From Cytophagaceae bacterium (GTDB lineage: Bacteria > Bacteroidota > Bacteroidia > Bacteroidales > Marinilabiliaceae): a DNA stretch of 32,803 nt. A model generated the notes under the pieces. It was not told where the DNA came from. It saw nothing but the letters and a program-made list of their open reading frames with translations, and made no database searches. The DNA lies in NCBI GenBank assembly GCA_031285765.1, contig JAITVO010000286.1:1-32803 (forward strand), given 5' to 3'. This document shows, in pieces, positions 10,227 through 28,657 of this stretch. The position numbers were made by a program, and so were the translations under genes. The stretch's first letter is position 1, and each line of letters opens with the position of its first letter.

Positions 10227-10353
10227 TATACTCAAACAAAATTGATTTGCGAATAAAAGCAACAATGGGGCATGCCCCATTGCCGGTGCAGGACGGCAGT
10301 TGAACCTGCAACATAAACCTCTGTTATTTGCAATTCATTTCCTGTTGAGTATA
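10227..10353 (+). repeat. 127-bp palindromic mobile-like element, copy 1
   Basis: The ends are TATACTCAA and TTGAGTATA, inverted. Inside are TTGATTTGCGAATAAAAGC, then a perfect 20-bp palindrome CAATGGGGCATGCCCCATTG at 10263-10282, a second hairpin TGCAGG/CCTGCA, and CTGTTATTTGCAA before the right end. A homologous 127-bp copy lies in the opposite orientation at 28531-28657. It has no coding capacity. It looks like a MITE or a structured repeat. Confidence 0.8.
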
Positions 10354-28530: not shown

Positions 28531-28657
28531 TATACTCAAACAAAAATAGTTTGCAAATAACAGTGGCTTCCAGTTTTTAACTGTTCAGTTTTATTTATTG
28601 ACAAGGGGATTAATCCCCTTGTTGCTTTTATTCGCAAATCAATTCTGTTTGAGTACA
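28531..28657 (-). repeat. 127-bp palindromic mobile-like element, copy 2 (inverted relative to copy 1)
   Basis: The plus-strand ends are TATACTCAAAC and GTTTGAGTACA. Its reverse complement matches 10227-10353 at 37 of the first 39 nt and over most of the last 33 nt. The central perfect palindrome CAAGGGGATTAATCCCCTTG (within 28601-28622) stands where copy 1 has a different perfect palindrome. The segment between this and the far end has diverged but still has short inverted repeats (AACTG/CAGTT). It is non-coding. Confidence 0.8.

Follow-up and report, generated by a model that had tools for sequence, protein, structure and literature searches.

The two 127-bp repeats of the window, which is the whole 32,803-nucleotide stretch analysed (positions 1 to 32,803 of contig JAITVO010000286.1 in the Cytophagaceae bacterium MAG GCA_031285765.1), belong to a MITE family that is non-autonomous and duplicates TA at its target, an ordinary kind of element. 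The palindrome at the centre of each copy is best read as a tag-less, REP-like unit with an unusual partner. The account considered probable as a whole combines a burst of the MITE with an independent palindrome whose likely mobiliser is a Y1 domain embedded in Type IIG restriction-methylases. The MITE would have reached its about 170 copies in the Bacteroidales host in a burst, moved in trans by a TA-specific transposase. Its two subfamilies have the left arm and the terminal repeats in common and contain a different member of the palindrome family at the same place. The palindrome, which the MITE would have captured, is probably a passenger amplified along with it.

Copy A (10227-10353, forward strand) consists of a 123-bp core with TA on each side, 127 bp in total. 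In copy B one flank is TA; the other is TG, which derives from TA by decay. The features are as follows.

10229-10351, forward strand: MITE copy A, subfamily A, a 123-bp core with ends TACTCAA...TTGAGTA, from reading of the sequence
10227-10228, no strand: TA, left target-site duplication of copy A, from the sequence, with the duplication proven on nested copies
10352-10353, no strand: TA, right target-site duplication of copy A, from the sequence, with the duplication proven on nested copies
10229-10253, forward strand: left terminal inverted repeat of copy A, from the TIR pattern
10327-10351, reverse strand: right terminal inverted repeat of copy A, from the TIR pattern
10263-10282, no strand: REP-like palindrome of copy A with a GCATGC centre, CAATGGGGCATGCCCCATTG
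28533-28655, reverse strand: MITE copy B, subfamily B, a 123-bp core (whole repeat 28531-28657)
28631-28655, reverse strand: left terminal inverted repeat of copy B, in the orientation of the element
28533-28557, forward strand: right terminal inverted repeat of copy B, in the orientation of the element
28602-28621, no strand: REP-like palindrome of copy B with an ATTAAT centre, CAAGGGGATTAATCCCCTTG, which extends to 22 nt

A first-pass annotation of this DNA had described paired 127-bp copies, nearly identical over the first 39 nt and similar at the far end, with a perfect palindrome in between that differs from one copy to the other. Direct reading of both copies bears this out. The left arms are identical at 37 of 39 positions (2 differences), the centres are two different perfect 20-nt palindromes and the ends of both copies form the inverted repeat TACTCAA...TTGAGTA; to the right of the palindrome, A and B have no similarity over roughly 45 nt until the right end is reached. 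RNA folding gives z = -4.1 for copy A and -8.2 for copy B. What the annotation did not contain is that A and B are two among about 170 copies, which fall into two main subfamilies.

The host genome is a 3.36-Mb MAG of 372 contigs, 89.6% complete, in which the assembly breaks at repeats, and many contigs end inside a copy of the MITE. Searches with blastn gave 52 matches with copy A and 76 with copy B. The TIR ends occur 334 times, compared with 5 for a reversed-pattern control, which is far more than chance would give and corresponds to about 170 copies. The copies compared are a sample of this set: 98 candidate pairs, 86 of them with a palindrome, comprising subfamily A (n = 29, mean pairwise identity 83%) and subfamily B (n = 57, 95%). 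TA is present on both flanks in 77 of 95 sampled copies. Duplication of the target is seen directly at locus L061, where an A copy is inserted within a B copy with TA on each side of the insert, and where uninterrupted B copies read ACAGT-TA-AAAACTGG; two further A-in-B nested insertions are found at L006 and L011. The family thus shows TIRs, short length, lack of coding capacity, many dispersed copies and TA target duplication, and the earlier suggestion that the ends are transposon ends is confirmed by the TIRs, the duplicated TA and the nested insertions. Two members of the TIR family, L086 (83 bp) and L102 (64 bp), have no palindrome.

The many copies in the host have no counterpart in 60 related genomes, in which the palindrome was all that matched apart from a single short coding match in G014 and another in G029. 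There was no match to the MITE in phages or plasmids, and its left arm was not found in viral contigs. Integron attC sites are ruled out by the TIRs, the TA duplication, the arrangement of the elements as single units in both orientations and the lack of a GTTRRRY core. ERIC elements, which are also about 127 bp, were dismissed as a coincidence of size only.

TA target duplication is typical of IS630/Tc1-type transposases. A DDE_3 search of the host gave 22 matches, and eight IS630-type loci were examined. The TACTCAA ends were found at none of these eight loci, two of which end in TATAGCTAACTC, and an autonomous element with TACTCAA ends was not found in the host MAG, which is incomplete and breaks at repeats. 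Since the IS630-like loci examined lack the ends of the MITE, what moved it has to be inferred; it was probably mobilised in trans by a TA-specific transposase of the IS630/Tc1 type.

Some other insertions involve copies of the MITE. An IS630-like element with TATAGCTAACTC ends contains an A copy (L261:954-1967), and a different TA-flanked MITE (TACTAAAGTGAAAGTGG...) is inserted into a B copy at L100:272-405. At about positions 500-750 of locus L062 (G000:C290) the palindrome AAGGGGATTAATCCCCTT of a B copy is exactly swapped for a unit of about 190 bp with the ends GAGGCTGTCC...GGACAGCCTC. A shortened A element lies inside another repeat with the ends TAAGTAGATGTTCATAATTATTTCACATAAGTAAG... at several contig ends of the host (L065-L073, genome G000), and the assembly breaks there indicate that this surrounding repeat is multi-copy.

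The palindrome has a distribution of its own. Both window palindromes belong to a wider family with the consensus RACAANGGG-N6-CCCNTTGTY. With a degenerate pattern, 205 CAANGGGRNNNNYCCCNTTG palindromes were found in the host genome compared with 0 for the controls, most of them in MITE copies. Elsewhere among 119 genomes the palindromes number 19 in G006, 10 in G096, 7 in G075 and 6 in G052, with at most one in each of the others. Among 85,000 species genomes that were scanned, the palindrome occurs in at least 100 stretches, and the taxa among the matches listed include Bacteroidales, Ignavibacteria, Beta- and Gammaproteobacteria, a Lachnospiraceae and the archaeon Methanoregula. Centres seen at 203 distinct places include GCATGC, ATTAAT, ACATGT, TTGCAA and TTGAAA, with 0 control hits.

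The flanks of the palindrome are random beyond 2 nt, namely two purines before CAA, which makes it a discrete unit of approximately RACAANGGGGCATGCCCCNTTGTY, about 22-24 nt long. Like a REP it is a palindrome of 20-40 nt dispersed through the genome, but the foot of its stem carries neither GTAG nor CGTC as an unpaired tag, and no base is conserved past the two purines. It is probably a mobile unit independent of the MITE. The layout of the repeats had been thought to match no named family; it is that of an ordinary MITE, and the part that stands apart is the palindrome, which resembles REPs without their tag. In the literature its sequence was found only in one unrelated mitogenome paper, and no paper on an untagged palindrome of this kind was found in a search that covered few subscription journals.

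In other genomes the palindromes lie within long open reading frames in all three frames, where they encode RGHAPL, KGACPLV and QGGMPPC, and outside the MITE it is mainly genes for Type IIG restriction-methylases that contain them, in frame. The CAAGGGGATTAATCCCCTTG 20-mer of copy B is itself found inside a Type IIG/Y1 gene of a different genome. Most of 20 palindrome-bearing open reading frames that were scanned have Eco57I or MmeI methylase domains, and that at L194 is an N6_N4 methylase; the rest code for proteins with no relation to these, among them DnaX, an ABC transporter and a protein with a sorting domain. PADLOC assigns three proteins of the Eco57I type and one of the MmeI type to Type IIG. 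A Y1_Tnp domain lies within the methylase in 8 of the 20, and the model NF047646, 'REP-associated tyrosine transposase', matches the Y1 domain at 7e-13, which is under the cut-off of that family.

This IS200/REP-type Y1 (HUH) domain sits between the DPACGSG and NPPY motifs of the methylase, and the palindrome lies in the linker between HUH and Tyr. Compared with the Y1-less homologue L219, which is 55-72% identical to the Y1-bearing homologues upstream of the Y1 position and has a short linker there, the domain is inserted between EFPxVF and GGFDVVIGNPPY. HUH is DHxH (DH[MLVI]H) and Tyr is YIxNNR, both conserved and intact in most of the Y1 domains compared, although part of the domain is lost in L207 and L320. 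The predicted fold (pLDDT 74) matches TnpA_REP 4er8 and the IS608/ISDra2 TnpA best, with the linker encoded by the palindrome predicted to be disordered. The HUH and Tyr motifs of TnpA_REP/RAYT proteins are thus present in a Y1 fold, but the NH[IFV]H and YIxNNP motifs of RAYT subclass 2.4 are absent and are replaced by DH[MLVI]H and YIxNNR. No paper on a RAYT-type or other Y1 domain inside Eco57I or Type IIG enzymes was found in a search that was thin in subscription journals.

The most likely mobiliser of the palindrome is this domain, which in many bacteria is an extra part of a Type IIG restriction-methylase and has the palindrome within its coding frame. One Type IIG/Y1 gene (L155) contains 10 palindromes, among which the exact B sequence occurs three times and the A centre GCATGC is present. 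Palindromes cluster in the Y1-bearing gene, with 10 of 29 in G120 and all three in both G109 and G162, and divergent Y1 domains pair with divergent palindromes (G109, G097). Palindromes are also present in Type IIG genes where Y1 was not detected (L219, L204). MmeI orthologs with palindromes are a net 15 nt longer than those without, and a clean insertion of 22-24 nt or an empty site for the palindrome was not found among them.

Of 119 relatives, 4 have a strong Y1 match, and three of these are among the five palindrome-rich genomes (hypergeometric ~1e-4, with kinship ignored). The fourth, G109, has variant palindromes only inside its Y1 gene. About 14 of 46 palindrome-bearing genomes, a set chosen by the palindrome, have a strong Y1 match. 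Palindrome-carrying Y1 genes thus occur in other genomes but none was seen in the host of the window: a matching Y1 gene was found neither in that 89.6% complete MAG nor in G075, nor in about 30 of the 46. Since both sets lack a correction for kinship, the second was selected by the palindrome and the host has no matching gene, cleavage and movement of the palindrome by a Y1 embedded in restriction enzymes is put forward as a hypothesis. In G096 a stand-alone Y1 gene has lost the Tyr region (L286, G096:C74), and the palindrome with a GCAAGC centre occurs there in 42-bp tandem arrays (L141/L151).

The matched arm changes between A and B had been taken as the signature of selection for a hairpin or cruciform. 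Within the MITE family this does not hold: among the 86 sampled copies the aligned arms (860 pair cells) carry 26 changes on one side alone and none on both. In each subfamily no part of the element is better conserved than the palindrome, whose mismatch rate is 0.034 against 0.125 in the rest of the element in A and 0.013 against 0.030 in B. Across the wider palindrome family the idea fares better, as structure is kept there while the sequence varies. The N-N pair of the consensus is complementary at 86 of 90 places in 50 genomes, where 25% is expected, and G-C, T-A, C-G and A-T are all seen, which is real compensated variation. The difference between A and B is one between two existing members of this family and need therefore not have arisen by stepwise compensation. 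Selection for a hairpin or cruciform as a terminator, RNase site or protein-binding site, with compensatory drift, agrees with the perfect stems in most copies, the low mismatch rates, the strong folds and the covariation across genomes; it is nevertheless improbable in view of the one-sided changes within the MITE, and a terminator fits poorly with palindromes that lie in coding genes in all three frames. Matched arms would also be possible without selection, by swapping of units or by quasipalindrome template switching at replication, a mutational bias that perfects the arms. One matched change, G..C to T..A at a single site, separates the orthologous MmeI genes L275 and L276, and carriers of another host repeat (L146 and L153) differ by the same kind of change; for single-site differences like that of L275 and L276, template switching is a competing reading. 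As the general explanation, template switching is unlikely: the same few palindromes at unrelated sites in unrelated genomes are unexplained by it, and a matched change is not seen among the 86 MITE copies. Matched arm changes between repeat copies are not readable as selection before the source of the palindromes has been checked.

It is quite improbable that the palindrome is just an ordinary internal stem of the MITE, with no tie to REP-like units, and that A and B differ by subfamily divergence. Most of the 205 host palindromes do lie within MITE copies, and strong secondary structure is common in MITEs (PMC10969869). This explanation is contradicted by identical 20-mers outside MITEs in other genomes, with unrelated flanks and in three reading frames of genes, by the TIR-family members that have no palindrome and by the lack of two-sided changes within subfamilies. 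The Y1 domain might instead be a dead passenger of the Type IIG genes, with palindromes merely gathering in permissive linkers of restriction genes, as the Tyr-less stand-alone Y1 of G096, the partly lost domains of L207 and L320 and the palindromes in Type IIG genes without detected Y1 could suggest. That is doubtful considering that most of the domains retain both the HUH and the Tyr motif, that palindrome variants follow Y1 divergence and that palindromes cluster in the Y1-bearing gene. The preferred reading, a mobile palindrome with the Y1 as its likely mobiliser, can be given a more specific form, which is offered tentatively as a serious possibility: Type IIG enzymes of several phyla with a built-in RAYT-like Y1 would spread the tag-less palindrome of about 22-24 nt, preferentially into their own and other restriction genes, adding an in-frame linker peptide (RGHAPL, KGACPLV or QGGMPPC), and in the host of the window the MITE would have captured and amplified it.

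As in the window, TA is the target that is duplicated by RUP of pneumococcus and Correia/NEMIS of Neisseria. These bacterial MITEs are likewise about 100-200 bp long with TIRs, high copy number, nested clusters and no coding capacity (PMC10969869). The MITE of the window differs from them in its TACTCAA... TIR, its Bacteroidales host and its central REP-like palindrome common to other genomes. REPs with TnpA_REP/RAYT subclass 2.4 (RAYT group 4) also combine short palindromes with a Y1 HUH transposase in Bacteroidetes hosts, and REPs are inserted in frame in the tnpA_REP genes of this subclass between the HuH and Y motifs (PMC6006769). The present system differs in the lack of a GTAG tag, in YIxNNR for YIxNNP and DHxH for NHxH, and in the location of Y1 inside a Type IIG restriction-methylase. 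Known TnpA_REP enzymes make use of a GTAG or CGTC tag, and cleavage that depends on GTAG has been described (PMC8266576). CGTC-tagged REPs are also short palindromic repeats of Bacteroidetes, some of them in genes, several of which are DNA-repair and replication genes (PMC3733652); the palindromes here have no CGTC tag and their genes are mainly those of restriction-modification. Rickettsia palindromic elements (named in PMC10969869) lie likewise in frame in protein genes but are about 150 bp long, whereas the present units are about 22-24 bp and spread over several phyla.

Less expected than the MITE is a tag-less palindrome common to distant microbes, in frame in restriction-enzyme genes and with a transposase domain set in the methylase. 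Should the palindrome be moved by the Y1, one polypeptide would unite a defence enzyme with a selfish repeat, and the spread of REP-like palindromes, a long-open question, would become testable with enzyme and substrate in one gene.

The palindrome was also seen in other settings. Two viral contigs from IMG/VR carry it (L254, L255, L256). In betaproteobacterial MAGs it lies within a dispersed repeat of their own, CTTCCCTCTGAAGTGGGGGATATA...TTCAGTGAAT (L157, L165, L169, L173, L178, L190, L195). In G006 and G075 intergenic palindromes come after repeated gene ends (VNGVKYDVTGRV...) and are themselves followed by a conserved GGCGACnnCAGCAATGTGGTCGCC hairpin (L123, L124, L129, L131, L137).
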